From a virus, in IMG/VR virus record IMGVR_UViG_3300045999_009520, positions 1 through 39,330 of that record: 39,330 nt of DNA, one strand, 5' to 3'. The notes under the pieces were generated by a model. The model saw only the letters and a list, made by a program, of their open reading frames with translations, made no database searches and was not told the DNA's origin. Shown piece after piece: positions 623 through 39,330 of the stretch (positions are counted from its first letter, which is position 1; each line of letters begins with the position of its first letter). The translations under genes were made by a program, and so were the position numbers.

Positions 623-640
623 AGTATTTATATAAATTAA

Positions 641-649
641 CTATTTATA
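641..649 (+). promoter_or_regulatory. CTATTTATA motif upstream of the 661 gene (candidate late promoter)
   Basis: CTATTTATA ends 11 nt before the ATG. It is one of 13 copies of CTATTTA(T/A/C) found just upstream of virion or late-type genes on both strands of this window. Promoter function is inferred from position only. Confidence 0.5.
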
Positions 650-660
650 AAAAAATAGAG

Positions 661-1203
661 ATGAAAATTATCATAAATAAGAATCAGTTAAATAAATTAA
701 AAAGATATATAGCTGAAACATATTATGAATCTAGGAAGCCTGTTGATGGGTATGTGGATGCGAATGATTTAGTTGGTGAGAGGTTATGGTTTCATACCAA
801 TAGAACACATAGGAATCATAATAAAAATGGTCTTATTGGTATATATAATACAACTAGGAATGGTACAAAGGCAGGGGAATCGGGTAGATATACAAATGAG
901 GTAAGATTAAAGTCACCGATTTATTTTCAGACATCTGAAAGTGGTGCTGAAAGAATTCAATCAACAGGAAAAAGGGATTTAATAGCAGGAGTATCGGGTA
1001 TTGTAGTACCTACTAATAATAATACTAGTGGCATGGTTAATATAACATTTAATCCTTTTGGTTTAGGATATTTTCATATTATTGATGATACATTAAAAAG
1101 GGAGATTATTTCTGCTGATGAGGTTTACTTTTATGCATCAGAGGATGGTGAATGGGAAATATGGGCTAAGAATCCTAAGTTTATTAATTCAGAGAATCCT
1201 TGA
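661..1203 (+). CDS. Unknown protein with N-terminal capsid-signal-like helix
   Basis: 180 aa. The first 19 residues form a basic helix ending in YIAE, followed by TYYES. This resembles T4 internal-protein leaders, which are cut by the prohead protease after (I/L/F)xE. The body has an LWFHTN motif (about 41-46), a GIYNTTRNG loop, SPIYFQTSESGAERIQ, AGVSGIVV and a C-terminal EVYFYASEDGEWEIWAKNP. The HTN-plus-loop layout is vaguely like ADP-ribosyltransferase folds, but no catalytic triad can be assigned. A CTATTTATA motif precedes it and a repeated element flanks it on both sides. Function unknown; packaging is inferred. Confidence 0.7.
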   Translation: MKIIINKNQLNKLKRYIAETYYESRKPVDGYVDANDLVGERLWFHTNRTHRNHNKNGLIGIYNTTRNGTKAGESGRYTNEVRLKSPIYFQTSESGAERIQSTGKRDLIAGVSGIVVPTNNNTSGMVNITFNPFGLGYFHIIDDTLKREIISADEVYFYASEDGEWEIWAKNPKFINSENP

Positions 1204-1396: not shown

Positions 1397-2398
1397 TTAA
1401 ATCATTTTTAATATATAATTAACATCTGAATCATTTAAATTATATAATTCATTATCATCCTCAAGGCTTAAAAGATTATATTCATTGATATAGTCTTTAT
1501 GTTTTACATTATCTAATAGCATTTCTTTTCCATTTCGATAAATATCTATGTTATCATATAAATCAACATTTAGTATTTTAAGATAAAAGAAATTATCATC
1601 AAATTTAAGACAATCTTCAAGAACTAATTTATTATGAAAAAGGGTTTTAAGTCCTACTGCGTTTCTAAGAACATCAATAGATATATTATTTTTATTATTA
1701 TATTTTATTAACTCATCAATAACATAATCATCGGTGATTTTGAATGATTTTTGTATACCATCTACTTTAATATGCATTTTTACATAGTAAAATACATTAA
1801 GTTTATTTTTCATTATATATAATAAACTATCTAGTAAATAATATTCATAACCTTTAGCTATACATTCTAGTAGGTTAAGTTGAGATTTAAAATCTTTATT
1901 AAATTTAACATAATAGGAATCATCAATTTTTATTAGGTCATCCCATTTACCAATCTTATCAGATATATTATTATCATATTGGATTACATCTTGATATAGG
2001 CAGAGTACAGGTATTTTTTTTTGACCTAATTGATTAGCAGCGACAACTCTGTGTCTACCTTCTTGTTGTTTATTAACATAATTTAGATAAGGCATATTAT
2101 ATTTAACACCACTAATCATATTTTCTTTAATATCCTCAACATTAGATTTGTCTATATATTTAAATTGGTCTTGATAAGTGGTATCTTGTAATTTAGCGCA
2201 TTCATATATATAATCTTCTGCTGAAAGGAATTTAATTTCAGCGTACCAATCATGATATTTTTTGGGTAGGTTAGATAATTGATTAAATAAGATTGCGTCA
2301 AAGTCAGGGATATTGGTTTTATTTTTAAAATACCCATAAGAAGAGTTAGAATTATTTTGCAGTTCTTCCTTTATAATTCTTTTAATTATATGTAACAT
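1397..2398 (-). CDS. ParB/sulfiredoxin-like protein with leader helix
   Basis: 333 aa from the ATG at 2398. A longer frame upstream would run into the divergent gene, so this start is preferred. Residues 1-11 (MLHIIKRIIKE) are a basic helix ending in IKE, like the putative packaging leaders elsewhere in the window. Residues 103-136 (MPYLNY...QEGRHRVVAANQLGQKKIPVL) match the conserved core of ParB/Srx-superfamily domains, with the GRHR nucleotide-binding motif. Such domains bind or hydrolyse nucleotides or nick DNA. The C-terminal 190 residues are unrecognised. Divergent from the M15 gene at 2431, with a 32-bp gap holding a perfect palindrome. Confidence 0.65.
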   Translation of the reverse strand: MLHIIKRIIKEELQNNSNSSYGYFKNKTNIPDFDAILFNQLSNLPKKYHDWYAEIKFLSAEDYIYECAKLQDTTYQDQFKYIDKSNVEDIKENMISGVKYNMPYLNYVNKQQEGRHRVVAANQLGQKKIPVLCLYQDVIQYDNNISDKIGKWDDLIKIDDSYYVKFNKDFKSQLNLLECIAKGYEYYLLDSLLYIMKNKLNVFYYVKMHIKVDGIQKSFKITDDYVIDELIKYNNKNNISIDVLRNAVGLKTLFHNKLVLEDCLKFDDNFFYLKILNVDLYDNIDIYRNGKEMLLDNVKHKDYINEYNLLSLEDDNELYNLNDSDVNYILKMI

Positions 2399-7026: not shown

Positions 7027-8391
7027 ATGGCAAGACCTAGAACACCTAAAATACCTAAACCACCAAGAATAGAAAGTGTACCTGAAGATTTTTTAAGATA
7101 TAGTGATTTACCACAAGATTTTTTAAACAATTTCAGAAAAAACATAACAAGTAGTGTTGCATTTGTAAAAAAAGATGGTTCTGTAAGAACAATGGCTTTT
7201 AGAAAGCGTCTATTATCTTATAATGAGTTAAGAAGTACAGACCCAAAAAGTGAAAAGGAAACAAATATACTACCAAACAATAATATGTTTAGAGGATATG
7301 ATGTTAACCTATATAATAAAGCTTTAGCGGAATATAATGGTGATTCAATAAAAGCATCAGCAAAAGCATATAGGCAATTCTTTTTAGATAATGTGCTTGC
7401 AATTATGTCAGGAGGTAAAGTATATGATTTTCGTGAAAAAAATCAAATCATGGAAAGATTTGGACCTGAAGTATATAATAGTTTAAGTTCATCAATGATT
7501 AATGCTTTAAAAAGCGATATTCAATCAGCACAATCTGAATCGGGAGAAACTTTACAAGAAAATTTTAAAAATATGAAAAAGAAAATAAATTTAAACCAAT
7601 TTAAAAATTTAGTTAAAAGAATTATTAAAGAAGAAAAAAATAATTTAACTACAAGAAAAACAATCAGAATAAGTGAAAGCCAACTTAGAAATCAAGTTAG
7701 AACAATGTTAAAAGAATATTATGATGAAGATGAGATTGATAAGCAGAGGGGTTATACTAGTTTAAATGATTCAACACGTGTGGAATTACCCAATGGTGAA
7801 GAATTAAATCTTGATTTCTTTGCTGAAATGGATAAAAAGAATGGTGTAATTACCGATGGTCCTAAATGGAAAATTAATAGGGCTTATTTTTATACAAGAA
7901 ACGGACAAAAAGAAATAAATATTTATGACTCTAAGTATTTAAAATTATTAAAATTAGCTGATAAAGCTATTAATGATTATTTAATCAGGCAAGGTTGGTA
8001 TAGAGATAATCTTAGTTCGGATGATTATTGGCCTGAAAGACCATATAGTTCAAGATTAAGAGAAAACATGAAAAAGATGATGAAAGAGTATGATGATGGA
8101 TATAACTATGACCCAGATGAACGTGATGATGAATATAGTGGTTCTGGTGTAAGGGGTACTATAACAATAGACCCATTACCTAATGGAGATGTTTTAGACA
8201 TTAAGTTTACTGGTGGATGGGTTCCTAGTAAATATTCTCCTGATATTGATTGGCATATAGAAGAAGCAATTCTTTACACAGATAATGGCGAAATGAAAAT
8301 AGATATTTATGACCCTAAATATGCGGATATATTAAAAATAGCGGATGAGAATATTAGTGATTATCTAGATGGTGAAGGTATCCATTATTAA
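7027..8391 (+). CDS. Polyprotein-like protein with three internal leader helices and a duplicated domain
   Basis: 454 aa. Residues 1-30 are Pro-rich. Residues 35-165 hold a compact domain with KKDGSVRTMAFRKRLLSY, resembling phage SH3/WYL-like modules. Three basic helices ending in (I/L/M)KE follow: NLNQFKNLVKRIIKE (188-202), RISESQLRNQVRTMLKE (214-230) and RLRENMKKMMKE (343-354). After the second and third comes a related domain of about 75 residues (249-323 and 376-451), for example INIYDSKYLKLLKLADKAIN against IDIYDPKYADILKIADENIS. The helices match the leaders of the 11131 and 12907 genes. Cleavage by the prohead protease would free separate peptides; that is inference. A bidirectional terminator follows. 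Confidence 0.65.
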   Translation: MARPRTPKIPKPPRIESVPEDFLRYSDLPQDFLNNFRKNITSSVAFVKKDGSVRTMAFRKRLLSYNELRSTDPKSEKETNILPNNNMFRGYDVNLYNKALAEYNGDSIKASAKAYRQFFLDNVLAIMSGGKVYDFREKNQIMERFGPEVYNSLSSSMINALKSDIQSAQSESGETLQENFKNMKKKINLNQFKNLVKRIIKEEKNNLTTRKTIRISESQLRNQVRTMLKEYYDEDEIDKQRGYTSLNDSTRVELPNGEELNLDFFAEMDKKNGVITDGPKWKINRAYFYTRNGQKEINIYDSKYLKLLKLADKAINDYLIRQGWYRDNLSSDDYWPERPYSSRLRENMKKMMKEYDDGYNYDPDERDDEYSGSGVRGTITIDPLPNGDVLDIKFTGGWVPSKYSPDIDWHIEEAILYTDNGEMKIDIYDPKYADILKIADENISDYLDGEGIHY

Positions 8392-10688: not shown

Positions 10689-10691
10689 TTG

Positions 10692-10764
10692 TTGGCAGGA
10701 TGGGATTTGAACCCATAACCTTGACTGTATAAGAGTCCTGCGCTAACCCTTGCGCCACCTGCCA
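10692..10764 (-). tRNA. tRNA-Ile (anticodon UAU)
   Basis: A full cloverleaf can be drawn: acceptor TGGCAGG/CCTGCCA, D-stem GCGC/GCGC, anticodon loop CTTATAC, T-arm ATGGG-TTCAAAT-CCCAT, discriminator A. The anticodon stem has a G-A mismatch at its top pair (27:43). CCA is not encoded. It would read AUA, which AT-rich phages use often. Confidence 0.85.
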
Positions 10765-10977: not shown

Positions 10978-10981
10978 TTAG

Positions 10982-11065
10982 TATCAGAGAAGGGAATCGA
11001 ACCCTTACGGCATTGCTGCCACAGGATTTTAAGTCCTGCATGTCTACCTGTTCCATCACTCTGAC
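10982..11065 (-). tRNA. tRNA-Leu (anticodon UAA)
   Basis: Class II tRNA with acceptor GTCAGAG/CTCTGAT (G-U end pair), anticodon stem CAGGA/TCCTG with loop CTTAAAA, long variable arm GGC-AGCAAT-GCC, T-arm AAGGG-TTCGATT-CCCTT and discriminator A. CCA is not encoded. It reads UUA, the main Leu codon in this DNA. It lies 4 bp upstream of the Arg-like tRNA. Confidence 0.9.
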
Positions 11066-11111
11066 ATAGTGTTTTCACAATTCAAATATATATCTTTTTT
11101 TTTAATTCTGA

Positions 11112-11120
11112 CTATTTACA
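11112..11120 (+). promoter_or_regulatory. CTATTTACA motif upstream of the 11131 gene
   Basis: Candidate late motif ending 10 nt before the ATG. Confidence 0.5.
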
Positions 11121-11130
11121 AAAAAAAAAG

Positions 11131-11472
11131 ATGAAAAAAGTTTTAATCACAGAATCAGACATAAGAAGAATGGTTCGTAAAATGTTAATGGAACAAACTA
11201 CAATGGGTTCTACACCTGTTGGTTCTACAGGTTTTGCACCACAAGGTACAAATTTAACAACTTCTGCTGCTAAACAATCTACAACTGTAGCAACTACTAA
11301 AAATAAAGCATTATCAAGTACTTTAACTCAAGTTGATACTAGACAAGAATTGCTAGGTCAGTTTATGAATATTTTGCAGAATGTAAATGAAAAATTAAAA
11401 CCTGGTGTAATGTCAAAACAATCATTAGTTACAGACTTTACAAAGCTAGTAACTGATTTAGGTTATAAGTAA
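11131..11472 (+). CDS. Short protein with capsid-signal-like leader (twin of the 12907 gene)
   Basis: 113 aa. Residues 1-21 begin MKKVLITESDIRRMVRKML and end ME, matching the 12907 protein leader position by position (MKKV-x-ITE-x-x-(I/L)-R, basic middle, M-(L/I)-x-E). The rest is Thr/Ser/Gly-rich and then a short helical C-terminus. T4 internal proteins have a comparable short leader cut after (I/L)xE, so this may be a packaged protein processed at LME-Q. A CTATTTACA motif precedes it. It overlaps the convergent phosphoesterase gene by 10 bp. Function of the mature part is unknown. Confidence 0.6.
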   Translation: MKKVLITESDIRRMVRKMLMEQTTMGSTPVGSTGFAPQGTNLTTSAAKQSTTVATTKNKALSSTLTQVDTRQELLGQFMNILQNVNEKLKPGVMSKQSLVTDFTKLVTDLGYK

Positions 11473-12140
11473 TCAAAACTATAACCATTGTGAACAAATG
11501 GTAGATTTTCTCCATCTTTAACGCAAGATACATTTGCAAATATTGTTTTATATTCTGCAAATTTAAATGTACCATTATTTAAATTATCTTCATTATCATG
11601 GATATGACCAAATATATGATATTTAGGTTGTATCTTTAATACTCTTTTAAGTAATGCAGAACAACCTACATGTTCACTTACATGTCTATCTCTTGCTGCT
11701 GAATCTAAAACACTTTTAGGTGGTCCATGTGTAATTAAAATATCCATATCATCAGGCATTGTATCCCAAATTCTTCCAATTTTATTTCTTGCACGATTAA
11801 ATGCCCAATTACAAAACTCAGGAGTATAAGGAGAACCAAATATTTTAATTCCTTCTATCTCAACTAAATCATGTTCAAGATAAATAATATTTCTATTTTG
11901 AAATTCTTCTTTGTTAATAAATCTACTTTCAATAGATGTATCATGATTACCTGCTATAATCACTTTATATTTAACAGGCTGTTGTTCTAACCAAATTAAA
12001 AATAAATTAACTTCATTGTGGTTCATTGCAGGACTTTTTACATTTGAAAAATCTCCTGCATGAATAAGCATATCTGTTCCTTCAGGAATTTGAACCTGCT
12101 CATGTCTTCCATGAGTGTCTGAGATTGCAAAGATTTTCAT
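11463..12140 (-). CDS. Calcineurin-like metallophosphoesterase
   Basis: 225 aa. All metal-binding motifs are visible: ISDTHGRH (6-13), HAGDFS (27-32), AGNHDTS, ITHGPP and FGHIHDN. It is a full-length member of the small MPPED-like/YfcE-like phosphoesterase group, which hydrolyses phosphodiesters or phosphomonoesters; the substrate cannot be read from sequence. Given the Acb2-like gene nearby, a cyclic-nucleotide substrate is possible but unproven. The ATG is 4 nt after TATATTTG. Confidence 0.9.
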   Translation of the reverse strand: MKIFAISDTHGRHEQVQIPEGTDMLIHAGDFSNVKSPAMNHNEVNLFLIWLEQQPVKYKVIIAGNHDTSIESRFINKEEFQNRNIIYLEHDLVEIEGIKIFGSPYTPEFCNWAFNRARNKIGRIWDTMPDDMDILITHGPPKSVLDSAARDRHVSEHVGCSALLKRVLKIQPKYHIFGHIHDNEDNLNNGTFKFAEYKTIFANVSCVKDGENLPFVHNGYSFDYL

Positions 12141-12144
12141 AATG

Positions 12145-12152
12145 CAAATATA
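12145..12152 (-). promoter_or_regulatory. TATATTTG box 4 nt before ATG (phosphoesterase)
   Basis: TATATTTG-CATT-ATG on the minus strand, an exact TAnnTTTG match. A clear upstream TTTG element was not found here. Confidence 0.55.
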
Positions 12153-12159
12153 AAAAAAA

Positions 12160-12867
12160 TTAATTGTAATAAGTACTAAAACCTTCAGATGTTAGACCAT
12201 AATCAATTAATACTATTTTGTCTTGTCCATTTCTTTTAACTACACCATAAGAATTTAATTTAGTTAAATCTCTCATGAATGTGTTGGTTTTTATAAGAAA
12301 ATATATCATTGTACTTATAAAATCATCTTCAGACATTTTTTTTTCAATTTTAGGGTCTTGACTAAATGCTTGTCCTTTTGTAAAGGATATATATGATGAA
12401 TCTTTTTTAACAGTAAAAAAATATTTCCACATCAATTTAACATAAGAATCCCAATCAAATTTAGTTATTCTCTTAAATAAATCAGGGGTTAGTTCTCTAG
12501 CAAATTCCATTTCAATCCACCCATAATTTATATCATTATCGAATATTTTAGCTAATATATCTTTAATATCTTCATTATCAATATTATCTATATTATTAAT
12601 ATTATAGTCATATTCTGTCTCATTTTGGAATAATCCCTTTTTATTCCATGCTAATTTTAATACCTTTTCATTATTAATTTTATAAATTATTCTACTCGTA
12701 CCATTTGCTATTCTTTCTAAATGTTGGTCACAATACTCTATTCTTTTTTTAAAACTTTTATTAGTTAATCTTTTAAAAAAGTCCATATCAAAACTTTCGG
12801 GATAATCTTCATTTATGAAAGATTCTTTGATAATGTTTTTAATATAGTATTTAATTAAATTATTCAT
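12160..12867 (-). CDS. Protein kinase-like protein with leader helix
   Basis: 235 aa. Residues 1-15 (MNNLIKYYIKNIIKE) form a basic helix ending in IKE, like the putative packaging leaders. Kinase-like landmarks follow: loop ANGTSRIIYKI (54-64), VLKLA with Lys71, QNETEYDY as the helix-C Glu region (81-88), MEFARELT as the hinge (120-127), RDLTKLN (199-205, spaced like HRDLKPEN) and IDYGLT (221-226, DFG-like). It could phosphorylate host proteins early in infection if carried in the head, as inferred from the leader and the CTATTTATA motif 4 nt upstream. Catalytic activity is unproven. Confidence 0.6.
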   Translation of the reverse strand: MNNLIKYYIKNIIKESFINEDYPESFDMDFFKRLTNKSFKKRIEYCDQHLERIANGTSRIIYKINNEKVLKLAWNKKGLFQNETEYDYNINNIDNIDNEDIKDILAKIFDNDINYGWIEMEFARELTPDLFKRITKFDWDSYVKLMWKYFFTVKKDSSYISFTKGQAFSQDPKIEKKMSEDDFISTMIYFLIKTNTFMRDLTKLNSYGVVKRNGQDKIVLIDYGLTSEGFSTYYN

Positions 12868-12871
12868 TTCT

Positions 12872-12880
12872 TATAAATAG
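12872..12880 (-). promoter_or_regulatory. CTATTTATA motif upstream of the kinase-like gene
   Basis: Minus-strand copy ending 4 nt before the ATG, back to back with the plus-strand copy at 12885-12893. Confidence 0.5.
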
Positions 12881-12884
12881 ATAA

Positions 12885-12893
12885 CTATTTACA
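12885..12893 (+). promoter_or_regulatory. CTATTTACA motif upstream of the 12907 gene
   Basis: Plus-strand copy ending 13 nt before the ATG. Together with 12872-12880 it forms a near-symmetric divergent control region of 39 bp. Confidence 0.5.
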
Positions 12894-12906
12894 AATAAAT
12901 ATTTCC

Positions 12907-13245
12907 ATGAAAAAAGTAAGAATTACAGAAACACAATTAAGAGGATTAATTAAAAGAATGATTAGAGAAGAATATCAATCAAAACTTTCAATTTCCGATA
13001 TGTCAAGTCAATTACAAGCATTACCCGATGCAAGTTTAAATTCAGGTAAAGCAATAGAAACATTAATGACTCTTTTACCTCAGTTAGACCCATTAGAGGC
13101 AAAAAAATATGTTAAATCTCATTTATTACAATCGCCAAATGATGGATTTAGACCTTCAGGAAAAATGGTATTTAGATTTCCAAGACCTATGGGTAAAGAT
13201 GTTGATATTCCTATAGATGTTCAAGCATTTAAACAATACTTATAA
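12907..13245 (+). CDS. Short protein with capsid-signal-like leader (twin of the 11131 gene)
   Basis: 112 aa. Residues 1-21 begin MKKVRITETQLRGLIKRMI and end RE, homologous to the 11131 leader. The following EYQSKLSISDMSSQLQALPD starts an unrelated helical body with DPLEAKKYVKSHL and a C-terminal MVFRFPRPMGKDVDIPID. A shared leader on different cargo is the pattern expected of a targeting signal. Possible prohead-protease cut IRE-E. No known family for the body. Confidence 0.65.
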   Translation: MKKVRITETQLRGLIKRMIREEYQSKLSISDMSSQLQALPDASLNSGKAIETLMTLLPQLDPLEAKKYVKSHLLQSPNDGFRPSGKMVFRFPRPMGKDVDIPIDVQAFKQYL

Positions 13246-29110: not shown

Positions 29111-29120
29111 AATATTTTAT

Positions 29121-29129
29121 TATAAATAG
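29121..29129 (-). promoter_or_regulatory. CTATTTATA motif upstream of the 28640-29110 gene
   Basis: Ends 10 nt before the ATG and is separated by 7 bp from the plus-strand copy. Confidence 0.5.
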
Positions 29130-29136
29130 TTTTTTT

Positions 29137-33710: not shown

Positions 33711-35489
33711 ATGACCAAACATGAATTAATGATGGAGTATGCCAAGTGCGCTATTGATATAGAGTACTTTGCAAAAAAATATTGTAAAGTTTGGGATAAG
33801 AAAAAACAACAGTTTGTACCTTTTCAATTACTACCACAACAGGTTCAAGTATTAGAAACTTATAAAGAGAGTAACAGAGTTTTAGTTGCAAAATATCGTC
33901 AGGGTGGTATTACTACTGTGACTTGTCTTTATTTAGCACATTCAATTGTTTTTAGAAAGGATATTAAAGTTGGTGTTGCAGCTAACAAATTAAAACTTGC
34001 AAAGGAAAGTATCTTCTATCAGATTGCATCTATTATTAATAATCTACCAAGAGAAATATTTGGTAGAATACCAACTGATTCAGATACAAAAGAAATTAAA
34101 ATTTATAACAACGGTGCAACATTACAGGCTTTCGCAGCATCTGCTGATGGTCTTCGTGGTTTTACACCTGATATATTATTTATAGATGAAGCTGCGTTCC
34201 TTGAAGAAGGTGAAGAGTTTATGTCTTCTGCATCAGGTACAATGTCAGCTGGTGGTCAAATTATATTAAACTCAACACCAAGAGGTCTTGACCCAACATA
34301 TTATGCTCGCTATGAAGGTGCTAGAACAGGAAAAAATAACTTTAAAGTTGTTGAAATCAATTGGTTTGAAGACCCTCGTTATAATGAAGACTTAATTTGG
34401 ATTAGGGGTGATGATTTTATTGAGGAAAAAGACCCCGAAAAATATATGCAATTAAGAGTTGGTGGTTATAGACCATCATCTTCTTGGTTTAGAGATATGT
34501 GCCAAACATTCAATAATGACCCAAGAAAGATTGCACAAGAGTTAGAAAATAAATTCTTAGGTTCAGGTGGTAACCTTGTTGATGAGGAAACTATTATGAG
34601 AATTGAAAAGACTTGTAAAGAACCAATTAAAACAGAATTTGATAATAACTTTTGGATTTGGGAAGAACCAATATTTGGTTATGATTATTATTTAGCTTGT
34701 GACGTTGCAAAAGGAAGTGGTGATGGTGACTATTCTACTATTCAAATATTTAAAAATGATGCAGTAAATATGTTACTCGTTCAAGTAGCTGAATATCAAT
34801 CAAGAGTTCCGCTTGAAGTAATGGGTGAATTATGTTTGCAATATGGTGAAAAATATAATAATGCTTATGTAATTGTCGATGTTACAGGAGGTTGGGGTAT
34901 ATCAGTTATTCGATATTTAGTAAATAAAAAATATAAAAAAATACATTACGATAGACCAAGACAAAATGATGTAAAGATTCAATTAAAGAATTTACAAAGA
35001 GGTGAATTACAGCCAGGTTTCACGATGAAGAATGGTGCTATTCGTGATTATGTTATTAGAGAATTTGAAAGAAGATTAAGAGAGGGTGAAGCATTAATTA
35101 ATTCAATTAGATTACTTAGTGAAATTAAAACATTTGTATTTAATGATAATACAAATAGATATGACCATATGCGTTCAGCACATGATGACTTATTAATTGC
35201 AACAGGTATGTTGTTTGCAGTTTATATGTTTTCAAAGACTATTGGAAATGAATTCAATATTTATTTGAATTATGCTAAGTCTGCAATTGTTAGAAAGGGT
35301 GATGAATTTACCGATGCAAATGTAGAATTTCAAAAGAAAATGTTAAGTCAAGATGGTCAAGATGTAAATTATGAAAGAAAGAATGACATGTTAAAAGGAA
35401 AGGATTGGTACACAAATGGTAACAGTATAGATGTTCCTGAACGTCAAACACCAAAGATTAATAATAATCCTTACATATTTGTCAGATAA
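33711..35489 (+). CDS. Terminase large subunit (T4 gp17-like)
   Basis: 592 aa. The ATPase has a deviant Walker A, KYRQGGITT (about 61-69); the usual Lys is Ile, and an upstream Lys/Arg may replace it, as in other phage terminases. Walker B is DILFIDEAAF (about 154-163), with the coupling motif STPRGL. Nuclease acidic residues are in CDVAKGSGDGDYST, YVIVDVTGGW and AHDDLLIATGM. It cuts and pumps DNA into the prohead through the portal encoded next. Confidence 0.95.
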   Translation: MTKHELMMEYAKCAIDIEYFAKKYCKVWDKKKQQFVPFQLLPQQVQVLETYKESNRVLVAKYRQGGITTVTCLYLAHSIVFRKDIKVGVAANKLKLAKESIFYQIASIINNLPREIFGRIPTDSDTKEIKIYNNGATLQAFAASADGLRGFTPDILFIDEAAFLEEGEEFMSSASGTMSAGGQIILNSTPRGLDPTYYARYEGARTGKNNFKVVEINWFEDPRYNEDLIWIRGDDFIEEKDPEKYMQLRVGGYRPSSSWFRDMCQTFNNDPRKIAQELENKFLGSGGNLVDEETIMRIEKTCKEPIKTEFDNNFWIWEEPIFGYDYYLACDVAKGSGDGDYSTIQIFKNDAVNMLLVQVAEYQSRVPLEVMGELCLQYGEKYNNAYVIVDVTGGWGISVIRYLVNKKYKKIHYDRPRQNDVKIQLKNLQRGELQPGFTMKNGAIRDYVIREFERRLREGEALINSIRLLSEIKTFVFNDNTNRYDHMRSAHDDLLIATGMLFAVYMFSKTIGNEFNIYLNYAKSAIVRKGDEFTDANVEFQKKMLSQDGQDVNYERKNDMLKGKDWYTNGNSIDVPERQTPKINNNPYIFVR

Positions 35490-35529: not shown

Positions 35530-37341
35530 ATGGCAGAAGATAATAAAAGTCTGTTTTCGAACATTAATACTTTCTTCAAAAGAGCAACCGATGCTTTAGA
35601 TGGTGTAAGTAACAGACAAGAAGCACCCATACAAAAAGAATTTATTACAGCAGCTTCACAAGATGAAGCGATGAAAACCGCAGTTGAAGATGGTGCAATA
35701 AGATTTTATAGACAACAAAGCACCAAAATTGATAGGGGTAATGACCAACGCAAGTTGATGTATGAATCAAGTAGAATGATGCTCTACTATGATTATCTAT
35801 CAATGGATGGTTATCCAATCCTAGGTGCTGCATTAGATTTATTATCGGAAGAAGCTACAACTACAAAAAGTGATACAGGTCAAATTTTAAATGTTTATTG
35901 TTCATCTGATAAAGTTAAAAAAGAACTTGAAAGGTTCTTTTATAAAGTTATGGATGTTAACACTAATTTGTTTTATTGGTGTAGAAATATGTGTCAATAT
36001 GGTGACAACTTTGTTTATTTGGAATTATCAAAAGAAAATGGTATTGTAGACTTTAGACAGCTTGCATCTCAATTCGTTGAAAGAAGCGAAAAATATGATA
36101 ACAAAAATAGATTCAGAGCATTCTTCAAATATAAAGACCCAAATTCAGGAGGTCAAGAAGAATATATGGATTATCAAGTTGCACACTTTAGATTATTAGG
36201 TACAGGTGATAGACTCCCATATGGTTGTAGTGTATATGAAAAAGTAAGAAGGACTTATAAACAACTCTTTATGATGGAAGATGCGATGATGGTATATCGT
36301 ATCACAAGAGCAGCAGAAAGAAGAATTTATAAAGTTCCTGTTGGTAATGTTCCACCTGAAGATGTACCGCAAATCCTTGAAGCATTTGCTAATAATGTAA
36401 AGAAAAAGAAATTAGTTGACCCTAAGACAGGTGATATTAACTTTAAGTATAATATCGCATCAATGGATGAAGATATTTTTATTGCTGATAGAGGTAACTC
36501 ATCAGGTAATTTTGTTGATACTTTACCAGGTGCATCAAATCTTGAAGCCATATCTGATATTACATATCTTCGTGATAATTTATTTACAGGTTTAGGTATT
36601 CACAAAACATTGCTTGGTTTTTCATCTGACCAAGCATCAGGTGAAGGTAAGAATTTATCAATGCTTGATATTCGTTTTGCAAGAAAAGTTAATCGTATTC
36701 AACAAGCATTGCTTGCTGAATTAAATAAAATTGCAATTATTCATTTAGGATTACTTGGTGGTGATTATGAATCGTATATTGATGATTTTAAATTATCTCT
36801 TAACAATCCATCAACAGCATCTGACTTGTTACAACTTGAAATTTGGAAATCTAAATTGGAGGTATATGCTCAAGCTACAACCCCTAATCAAAATACTGGG
36901 TTAAAACCAATGTCAGAAATGATGGCAAGAAAAAGATTCTTCCATATGTCTGAAGAAGATATTATCAATGACCTTCAAGAGCAAATGCTTGAGTCTAAAA
37001 TTGGTGAAGAGGTTAAAGGTGCAGGTATGTTAATCAAAACATCAGGTGTGATGGATAAAATGATTAAATATAAAAATGCAGGATTTAAAGTAGAAGGTCA
37101 AGCGCAAGGTGGTGAACAACAACAGATTGATAATAGTCTTGGTGGTGGATTAGGTGGAACTGAAATGGGTGGTGGTGCGCCTCCATTAGGCGGTGGACCT
37201 GAAGCAGGTGGTGGTGCGCCTCCATTGGGTGGTGGCGAAGGTAGCTTACCACCAGGAGGTGAAGGAGGTGGAGGAGCAGGTTTTTTAAGTGAGGAAATTA
37301 TTAAAAAGACCGATGAATTAAACAGATTAATAAAAGAATAA
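35530..37341 (+). CDS. Portal protein (T4 gp20-like)
   Basis: 603 aa. Portal signatures of T4-like phages are DGYPILGAALDLLSEEATT (about 98-116), LPYGCSVYEKVRRTYKQLFM and MEDAMMVYRITRAAERRIYK, then DITYLRDNLFTGLGIHKTLL. It forms the twelve-subunit DNA channel at one prohead vertex. The C-terminus is unusual: Gly/Pro repeats GGGAPPLGGG (twice), then a short helix ending DELNRLIKE. The spacing to terminase is only 40 bp; in T4 the tail sheath and tube genes lie between them. Confidence 0.96.
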   Translation: MAEDNKSLFSNINTFFKRATDALDGVSNRQEAPIQKEFITAASQDEAMKTAVEDGAIRFYRQQSTKIDRGNDQRKLMYESSRMMLYYDYLSMDGYPILGAALDLLSEEATTTKSDTGQILNVYCSSDKVKKELERFFYKVMDVNTNLFYWCRNMCQYGDNFVYLELSKENGIVDFRQLASQFVERSEKYDNKNRFRAFFKYKDPNSGGQEEYMDYQVAHFRLLGTGDRLPYGCSVYEKVRRTYKQLFMMEDAMMVYRITRAAERRIYKVPVGNVPPEDVPQILEAFANNVKKKKLVDPKTGDINFKYNIASMDEDIFIADRGNSSGNFVDTLPGASNLEAISDITYLRDNLFTGLGIHKTLLGFSSDQASGEGKNLSMLDIRFARKVNRIQQALLAELNKIAIIHLGLLGGDYESYIDDFKLSLNNPSTASDLLQLEIWKSKLEVYAQATTPNQNTGLKPMSEMMARKRFFHMSEEDIINDLQEQMLESKIGEEVKGAGMLIKTSGVMDKMIKYKNAGFKVEGQAQGGEQQQIDNSLGGGLGGTEMGGGAPPLGGGPEAGGGAPPLGGGEGSLPPGGEGGGGAGFLSEEIIKKTDELNRLIKE

Positions 37342-37374: not shown

Positions 37375-38139
37375 ATGGTAAATTTTGGTAATGTCAAGTC
37401 AAAATTAAATAAAGCTTATTCTCAAGATTTAATTGAAAATACAAGTAAGTATAAAAAACTCTATGAAGAGTTTTTAAAAACAATTAAATCATCTCCTGTT
37501 CTAATGTTGGAATATACAATTTATGAGAATTTAAAAAAACATAATCTTGAATATAATGAATCATTAAGATTCATTGAAGCTAATATCTCCGCTTTATCTA
37601 AAATTGACAAACCCACATTACTAAAAGAAAACAAAAAACTTGAAAAGTTTGATTTAGAAGAGATAGAATTATCAGAAGATAAACTTAGATTAAATCAAAA
37701 CATTGAAAATGTTATTAGTGAAAGTGTATACAAAAAAATAACTAATGTAAATAAACTTCATGAATCCGTTAATTTCTTGATTGAGTCATTAACTAAAAAA
37801 GATGAAACAAAACTAGAAAAGACAGAAAATGGATTTAAAGTAAGTCATATCTTTCATTTAGCTAAAAAGAAATTAGAAGAGAAGTTCTCAAATCTTCAAC
37901 CTGATGAAATGGAAATAATTTCAAGTTTTATCAAAGGTGATGAAAAAAAGAAAAAAACAGTTTTTGAAAATTATAAAAAATCAACAAAGACTTTTTTATT
38001 AAATGAAAAAGATAATATTAGTTCAGAAGTTTTAAATGAAACATTTGATTTTATTGATACTTTAGAGTATGACTCTGAAACGGCTATTAATAATTTGTCC
38101 AAACTTTTTGAGATTAAAAATCTAAACTCAAATAAATAA
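37375..38139 (+). CDS. Prohead core protein (gp67/gp68 position)
   Basis: 254 aa, helical and highly charged, with (L/I)xE triplets such as LLKE-N, FLLNE-K and VLNE-T that a T4-type prohead protease could cut. It lies between portal and protease, where T4 has gp67 and gp68 core proteins. Sequence similarity to those is not evident, so the assignment is by position and composition. Its stop shares a base with the protease ATG (TAATG). Confidence 0.6.
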   Translation: MVNFGNVKSKLNKAYSQDLIENTSKYKKLYEEFLKTIKSSPVLMLEYTIYENLKKHNLEYNESLRFIEANISALSKIDKPTLLKENKKLEKFDLEEIELSEDKLRLNQNIENVISESVYKKITNVNKLHESVNFLIESLTKKDETKLEKTENGFKVSHIFHLAKKKLEEKFSNLQPDEMEIISSFIKGDEKKKKTVFENYKKSTKTFLLNEKDNISSEVLNETFDFIDTLEYDSETAINNLSKLFEIKNLNSNK

Positions 38140-38840
38140 TGAAAGAAATACAACTACTAAAAGAAGGACAGGAAGGATATGGCTTATTAGTAGAAACCGA
38201 TGCAGGTCTTATTAGTAATGATTTAACCATAAATAATAAAAAAATTTTTGAGGATTTAAATTCAAAATTTAGAAAAAATGATTTTGATGGTCATTTCTAT
38301 ATTGATTGTAAACTTCAAGAAGCTGATGTATTAAATAGAAATGGAAGAGTTTATCCAAGAGCAATTCTTGAAAAACAAATCAATGAATATCAAAAATTAA
38401 TTAATGATTATGCAGCACTTAATGAAGCAGACCATCCTGAAAGCGTTACTATATCTTTACAAAATATATCTCATAGAATTGCCAAAACTTGGTGGTCAGG
38501 AAATGCAGTTTATGGAACACTTGATATTATTGTCAGTGATTCGTTCATGAGAGATGGTATCGGTTGGTGCATTGGTGATAAAATTGCACTTTACTTGCAA
38601 AGAAATCTTAAACTTGGTATTTCTTCAAGAGGATTAGGAAGTGTTAAAAAAGTAGGTGGAAAAAATATTGTTCAAGATGATTTTGAACTTATTTGTTTTG
38701 ACCTAGTTGCTACACCTTCTACCCCTAATGCTTATTTGTTTTTGGAAACAAAAAATGAACCATTGAAGGAGTCAGTACAAGAAATAAACAATAATGTAAA
38801 AAAACATGATGATTCAATAAGAAAAATTATTGGTGGTTAA
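38139..38840 (+). CDS. Prohead protease (T4 gp21-like)
   Basis: 233 aa. The conserved YIDCKLQEADVLNRNGRVYP, catalytic His in LNEADHPES (about 94-102) and catalytic Ser in LGISSRGLGSV (about 157-167) are those of the T4 gp21 serine protease family. It degrades the core and trims head proteins after (L/I)xE. LKE-G at residues 7-10 and LKE-S at 209-212 look like self-processing sites and suggest the preferred cut sequence in this phage. Confidence 0.93.
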   Translation: MKEIQLLKEGQEGYGLLVETDAGLISNDLTINNKKIFEDLNSKFRKNDFDGHFYIDCKLQEADVLNRNGRVYPRAILEKQINEYQKLINDYAALNEADHPESVTISLQNISHRIAKTWWSGNAVYGTLDIIVSDSFMRDGIGWCIGDKIALYLQRNLKLGISSRGLGSVKKVGGKNIVQDDFELICFDLVATPSTPNAYLFLETKNEPLKESVQEINNNVKKHDDSIRKIIGG

Positions 38841-38875: not shown

Positions 38876-39330
38876 ATGAATAATAAAAAATCTTTATTAC
38901 AAGATAGTTTGCAAGAACTAGAAAATATCAAAAATGAATCTTTAGAACTAGCTAAAGAGCAATTGATTAATGAAAGTGCTGACTTACTTGAAAAAAAATC
39001 TGCTGAATTATTTGAAAAATTAATTGCAGGTGAAGACGTAGAAGAGTCAATTGATGAAGACTCTTCTGTTAATGAAACTATAGAGGAACTTAAAAAAATA
39101 ACAGAAGAAGAATCTGAAGAAGAAGAGTCTGATGAAGAAGATATGTCATCTGATGATGAGGAATCTAGTGATGAAGAAGGTATGGAATCTGATGAAGAGG
39201 AAATGGATTTAGATACTTTAAGAAAAGCAGCAGAAGAACATGGATTTAAACTAATTCAAGTTGATTCTGATGAAGATGAAGAATCTGAAGAAGAAGATAT
39301 GGAATCAGATGAAGAAGAAATGGATTCCTT
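38876..39330 (+). CDS. Scaffold/core protein, partial (T4 gp22-like by position)
   Basis: The ORF begins at the ATG at 38876 and runs off the window; 151 codons are visible. The N-terminal helix has LINES, LLEKK and LFEKLI. It is then dominated by Glu/Asp/Ser runs such as EEESDEEDMSS. It follows the protease, as the T4 scaffold gene does. Acidic scaffold proteins fill the prohead and are degraded before packaging. The major capsid gene probably lies just beyond the window. Confidence 0.7.
   Translation, partial: MNNKKSLLQDSLQELENIKNESLELAKEQLINESADLLEKKSAELFEKLIAGEDVEESIDEDSSVNETIEELKKITEEESEEEESDEEDMSSDDEESSDEEGMESDEEEMDLDTLRKAAEEHGFKLIQVDSDEDEESEEEDMESDEEEMDS

Follow-up and report, generated by a model that had tools for sequence, protein, structure and literature searches.

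In bacteriophage T4, the internal proteins IPI, IPII and IPIII, as well as the propeptides of Alt and gp24, provide the closest described model of a short N-terminal segment that ends in (I/L)xE, precedes unrelated cargo and occurs in a phage encoding an S77 protease. The T4 targeting segments are 10–19 amino acids long, ten residues being enough; positions 4 and 7 serve targeting, and positions 8 and 10 are required for processing. The T4 sequences read MKTYQEFIAE/, MKTFKEFTSTTTPVSTITE/, MAKINELLRE/ and ...FLTE/ (here and below, a slash marks the end of the segment), and T4 gp21 cleaves at L/I-X-E (PMC9026906). In phage P1, the N-terminal segment of DarB sends DarB itself, and likewise a reporter, to the inside of the head (PMC9024508). 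The N-terminal propeptides of SPN3US and phiKZ, 20–24 amino acids long in two proteins, are removed by the prohead protease after Glu (PMC10052503). Finally, polyvalent proteins, i.e., multidomain conflict proteins encoded near late genes, have been proposed to be injected with the DNA (PMC5512222).

The window considered here, the whole 39,330-nucleotide stretch of DNA that was analysed (positions 1–39,330 of the IMG/VR virus record IMGVR_UViG_3300045999_009520), belongs to an uncultivated T4-like phage and encodes proteins with N-terminal leaders that can be compared with these systems. Whereas only a few T4 genes are tagged, the leader described here is a basic amphipathic helix of 11–23 amino acids carried by up to about 20 genes per genome, with several interchangeable families and tandem copies within one protein. 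The N-termini of the Dar proteins lack a consensus (PMC9024508), in contrast to the strong consensus found here, and the propeptides of SPN3US and phiKZ are tied to particular head proteins, many exceeding 100 amino acids, with no common swappable tag described (PMC10052503). One cargo of the window has a predicted fold that occurs inside polyvalent-type multidomain proteins; however, most tagged products here are small proteins that stand alone, every one behind its own leader. A literature search with the leader sequence retrieved no paper on it.

Leaders in the window and leader families

The initial annotation had reported that the products of the ORFs at 11131 and 12907 share a 21-residue start ending in (I/L)xE and diverge thereafter, and reading both ORFs confirmed this. 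ORF 11131–11472 (113 aa) starts MKKVLITESDIRRMVRKMLME/Q and ORF 12907–13245 (112 aa) starts MKKVRITETQLRGLIKRMIRE/E:

11131..11193, plus strand: long leader MKKVLITESDIRRMVRKMLME, 21 aa; predicted cut after E21, possibly after E8
11194..11472, plus strand: cargo of leader MKKVLITESDIRRMVRKMLME; three relatives have an ortholog, with the leader in front every time
12907..12969, plus strand: long leader MKKVRITETQLRGLIKRMIRE, 21 aa
12970..13245, plus strand: cargo of leader MKKVRITETQLRGLIKRMIRE; no family match

Both leaders were N-terminal in a motif search of the window, for which shuffled proteins would give 0.02 N-terminal matches. A position-specific score returned three N-terminal matches among the 49 window ORFs (shuffles, 0.00) and none in residues 46–90 of the same proteins (0/40). 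Two tRNA genes (10691–10764 and 10981–11065, minus strand) directly adjoin the leader genes, an arrangement that we liken to the position of T4 ipI–III on the flanks of the T4 tRNA cluster.

The window holds extra copies that the initial annotation had overlooked, at 661, 1397 (minus strand), 12160 (minus strand) and within ORF 7027:

661..717, plus strand: variant leader MKIIINKNQLNKLKRYIAE, 19 aa, then T; E19 at the boundary is invariant among 10 homologs with differing leaders
718..1203, plus strand: cargo of the 661 product, PF25735 (L5 gp82-like) domain
2366..2398, minus strand: short-class leader MLHIIKRIIKE, then E, at an internal ATG of ORF 1397–2473
12823..12867, minus strand: short-class variant leader MNNLIKYYIKNIIKE, then S, in ORF 12160–12867; assigned by pattern, under the score threshold
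7573..7632, plus strand: internal leader copy MKKKINLNQFKNLVKRIIKE, aa 183–202 of ORF 7027–8391
7657..7716, plus strand: second internal leader copy KTIRISESQLRNQVRTMLKE, aa 211–230 of ORF 7027–8391

The copy MKKKINLNQFKNLVKRIIKE, internal in the window protein, is N-terminal in a homolog from a relative. Polyprotein-like proteins with two leader copies were observed in the window (7027–8391) and in two other phage genomes (G001:50043–50627 and G003:38381–39241); two cuts would free separate pieces from them.

A set of 146 leader proteins that differ in their cargo yields the consensus MKKIIRLTESDLxRIVKRVIxE/. Conservation reaches 2.3–5 bits at most leader columns (1.1–1.4 at columns 13 and 21). 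Two residues beyond the last Glu, by column 24, it has dropped to 0.39 bits, the sampling expectation being 0.1; E22 is present in 99% of these proteins and P3 is I, L, V or M. The long leader contains (I/L)xE twice, as LTE at 9 and IxE at 22 in the consensus and with ITE at 8 in the window form, so that mature termini after E21 are likely rather than certain: the predicted cut is most likely at the last Glu (E21), possibly with an extra one at the mid-leader ITE/LTE (E8). There is also a short leader family, MK-x-LI(K/R)xI(I/L)KE/, similar to the long leader over its second half, as well as a third family on unrelated cargo that ends ...LLESTLGDVKPLIxE/; all three close with (I/L/V)xE. The form MKHLLNNxSxEEKNxIREQHTGG...LLESTLGDVKPLIxE/ of the third family was observed in L126, L128, L130, L133, L136 and L150.

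Leaders retain their amino acids while many codons differ, and their codon identity (0.62) exceeds the codon-usage expectation (0.49), which suggests that they have spread partly via copying. The same excess, together with the promoter common to leader genes (see below), would suit a cassette acting at the DNA level, in which promoter and start region are copied through recombination and the common start has no protein function. We give this explanation almost no credence, because it accounts neither for amino acids conserved across differing codons, nor for in-frame internal copies, nor for the convergence of separate leader families on (I/L/V)xE.

Leaders are also exchanged in front of one and the same cargo. 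In related phages, the cargo of the 661 product follows at least seven different leaders, each with E right before the cargo; leaders on 661-type cargo elsewhere include MKHLIKKILKE/, MKSFYEYVKVRDINE/, NIVKTLLRE/ and MKYLKTFEE/, among others. In the predicted model of the 661 protein, residues 1–27 have a pLDDT <50 and are followed by the folded cargo. Likewise, the RYMFFSNL cargo bears a long leader in some phages and a short one in others. In one RYMFFSNL homolog (G009:77734), Q replaces the last E, which counts against a role of the leader in capsid targeting.

The prohead protease and the distribution of leaders

The gp21-like protease that the initial annotation had placed at 38139 is a Pfam Peptidase_S77 match (E=4e-24, 85.6 bits vs. 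a cut-off of 27), and its gene adjoins those for portal and terminase:

33711..35489, plus strand: terminase large subunit
35530..37341, plus strand: T4-type portal (gp20), head module
38139..38840, plus strand: prohead protease, Peptidase_S77 (T4 gp21 family), predicted cutter of leaders
38876..39328, plus strand: acidic scaffold-like protein in gp22 position, contains QLINE; clipped by the window end

The window stops before its own capsid gene, and the capsid comparison was made on the major capsid proteins of relatives. Aligned with T4 gp23, these keep the cleaved E65 invariant, within QIVSE, YLINE, ALLNE and HLINE. The conservation of this position as (L/I/V)xE suggests that the protease has the specificity needed for cutting leaders; on the other side of the balance, (I/L)xE is a short and common motif.

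Leaders were found in 9 of 12 contigs picked solely for a related S77 gene and in 0 of 17 random viral contigs. Conversely, S77 was present in 22 of 35 leader contigs, against a base rate of 3/17 in random contigs. Among the 13 leader contigs without S77, the T4-type portal gene is missing as well from 12, which are for that reason probably fragments; the remaining one is cut beside the portal. N-terminal matches numbered 9 among 223 ORFs in a 170-kb relative (G001), 5 among 116 in another relative (G003) and 19 among 235 in a distant S77 phage (G009), with none in residues 46–90 of the same proteins, and two relatives of 280–300 kb (G013 and G041) carry 20 leaders each. A scan of IMG/VR gave at least 497 matches. 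Across the genomes of 85k species of bacteria and archaea, only 7 leader loci were found, at least one of them on a 63,985-bp contig equal in bp to an S77 phage contig. No leaders were found in the S77-less Bacteroidota phages crAss001 and phi38:1. Short-peptide tblastn searches against named phages gave no matches, the 22–25-residue query being too short to reach significance. The best terminase match among cultured phages is a Flavobacterium-infecting phage; a cultured relative, Flavobacterium phage immuto_2-6A, has no long leader and encodes one DUF5872-like protein starting MGKVNKAYIENIIKEILSE/K.

The entire 22-residue helix is conserved, well beyond the needs of a protease, and some proteins contain two internal copies, as might be expected if the leader were an uncut docking tag whose helix contact recruits late proteins to the scaffold, the tail or another assembly site, the final Glu being part of the contact. 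We regard such a tag as unlikely, since leaders that differ in sequence replace one another at an invariant E, the leader boundary matches the capsid cleavage motif and leaders co-occur with S77.

Late-type promoter and predicted loading into the head

A promoter-like element, (A/G)ACTATTTA(T/C)A (the AACTATTTATA element), was derived by k-mer enrichment and lies 20–30 nt 5′ of the ATGs at 11131, 12907 and 661:

639..651, plus strand: late-type promoter element AACTATTTATAAA, 22 nt before ATG 661
11110..11122, plus strand: late-type promoter element GACTATTTACAAA, 21 nt before ATG 11131
12870..12882, minus strand: late-type promoter element preceding the 12160 (minus strand) gene
12883..12895, plus strand: late-type promoter element AACTATTTACAAA, 24 nt before ATG 12907
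29119..29131, minus strand: late-type promoter element

About 86–104 of the 564 genes of five related genomes carry the element (2–3 expected), including genes for the major capsid protein, sheath, tube and endolysin. With a matrix trained on non-leader genes only, it was found on 13 of 19 leader genes and on 86 of 545 others in this lineage (p=8e-7); the six leader genes without it weigh against a capsid-targeting role. Since leader and virion genes have this late-type promoter in common, leader genes are probably late genes in this lineage, as judged by the promoter element rather than by transcripts. The T4-like TATAAATA was also considered as the leader-gene promoter and was rejected, its upstream count showing no clear enrichment.

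We consider it probable that the leader acts as a capsid-targeting propeptide in the manner of those on T4 IPI–III, and we infer packaging, cleavage and injection of the proteins that bear it. This explanation is supported by the presence of one leader on unrelated cargo, by conservation that ends at E and by leader swaps at an invariant E, as well as by the co-occurrence with S77, the matching capsid cleavage position and the common late promoter. The T4-like targeting signal put forward by the initial annotation thus gains support, with three amendments: the leader is a widespread family rather than just a pair, it has no sequence similarity to the T4 targeting sequences beyond (I/L)xE and N-terminal position, and its second (I/L)xE site leaves a mature terminus after E21 likely rather than certain. 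As far as sequence comparison goes, the resemblance is limited to (I/L)xE, length and position. Sequence similarity to the T4 sites was considered and rejected: the leader matrix scores most known T4 sites like random Glu sites, overall no better than chance. The leader is therefore grouped with targeting sequences by its presumed function, and no homology to those of T4 is claimed.

According to the proposed mechanism, the amphipathic basic helix of the leader would bind the prohead scaffold or core and bring the attached protein into the assembling head, where the S77 prohead protease would cleave after (I/L)xE and free the cargo, which would then be positioned for exit with the DNA at infection. 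On a broader scale, and with evenly divided confidence, we propose that interchangeable tags constitute a general virion-import code in this uncultivated T4-like phage clade, by which each genome would load as many as about 20 different proteins into every particle, some of them multi-tag polyproteins cut in the head, for delivery to the host.

If capsid targeting is true, cleavable-leader head loading, known from few T4 proteins, would be a broad modular strategy. A simple sequence rule would identify the head-loaded, probably first-injected proteins of these phages, and the leaders would be portable tags for putting proteins into phage heads.

Cargoes of the leaders

The tag may mark proteins delivered into the bacterium alongside the viral DNA, in which case the leader cargoes would be candidates for host takeover and anti-defence. 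Pfam and PHROGs identified a small fraction of the cargo; recognised parts are thioredoxin, annexin-like, DUF5872, MORN, PG_binding, LysM, YkuD, Tae4-like amidase and M23+VanY. The predicted fold of the 661 cargo corresponds to a domain within giant multidomain phage proteins with ART-PolyVal-like, Zeta toxin, PcfJ-like and lysozyme annotations; PDB searches with this cargo by sequence and by fold gave no match.

Several cargoes are active on peptidoglycan (M23/VanY, YkuD, PG_binding and Tae4) and would work in the periplasm, not in the cytoplasm, which speaks against capsid targeting and would favour an export or membrane-attachment helix taking late proteins to the cell envelope, e.g., for lysis. 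Such a helix appears very improbable: the leader, read by eye, has charged residues throughout and neither the hydrophobic core nor the signal-peptidase site of a Sec-type signal peptide, the majority of the cargo is not recognisably envelope-related, and the leader is missing from the S77-less Bacteroidota phages and almost missing from bacterial genomes. Two minor observations concern the arrangement of cargoes. In L280 (503–1546), another N-terminal domain is fused ahead of 661-type cargo, and the two are separated by a zinc ribbon and a leader. Leaders also stand on an annexin-like protein in L137 (1596–2030) and on an M23+VanY peptidase in L138 (5256–6617).
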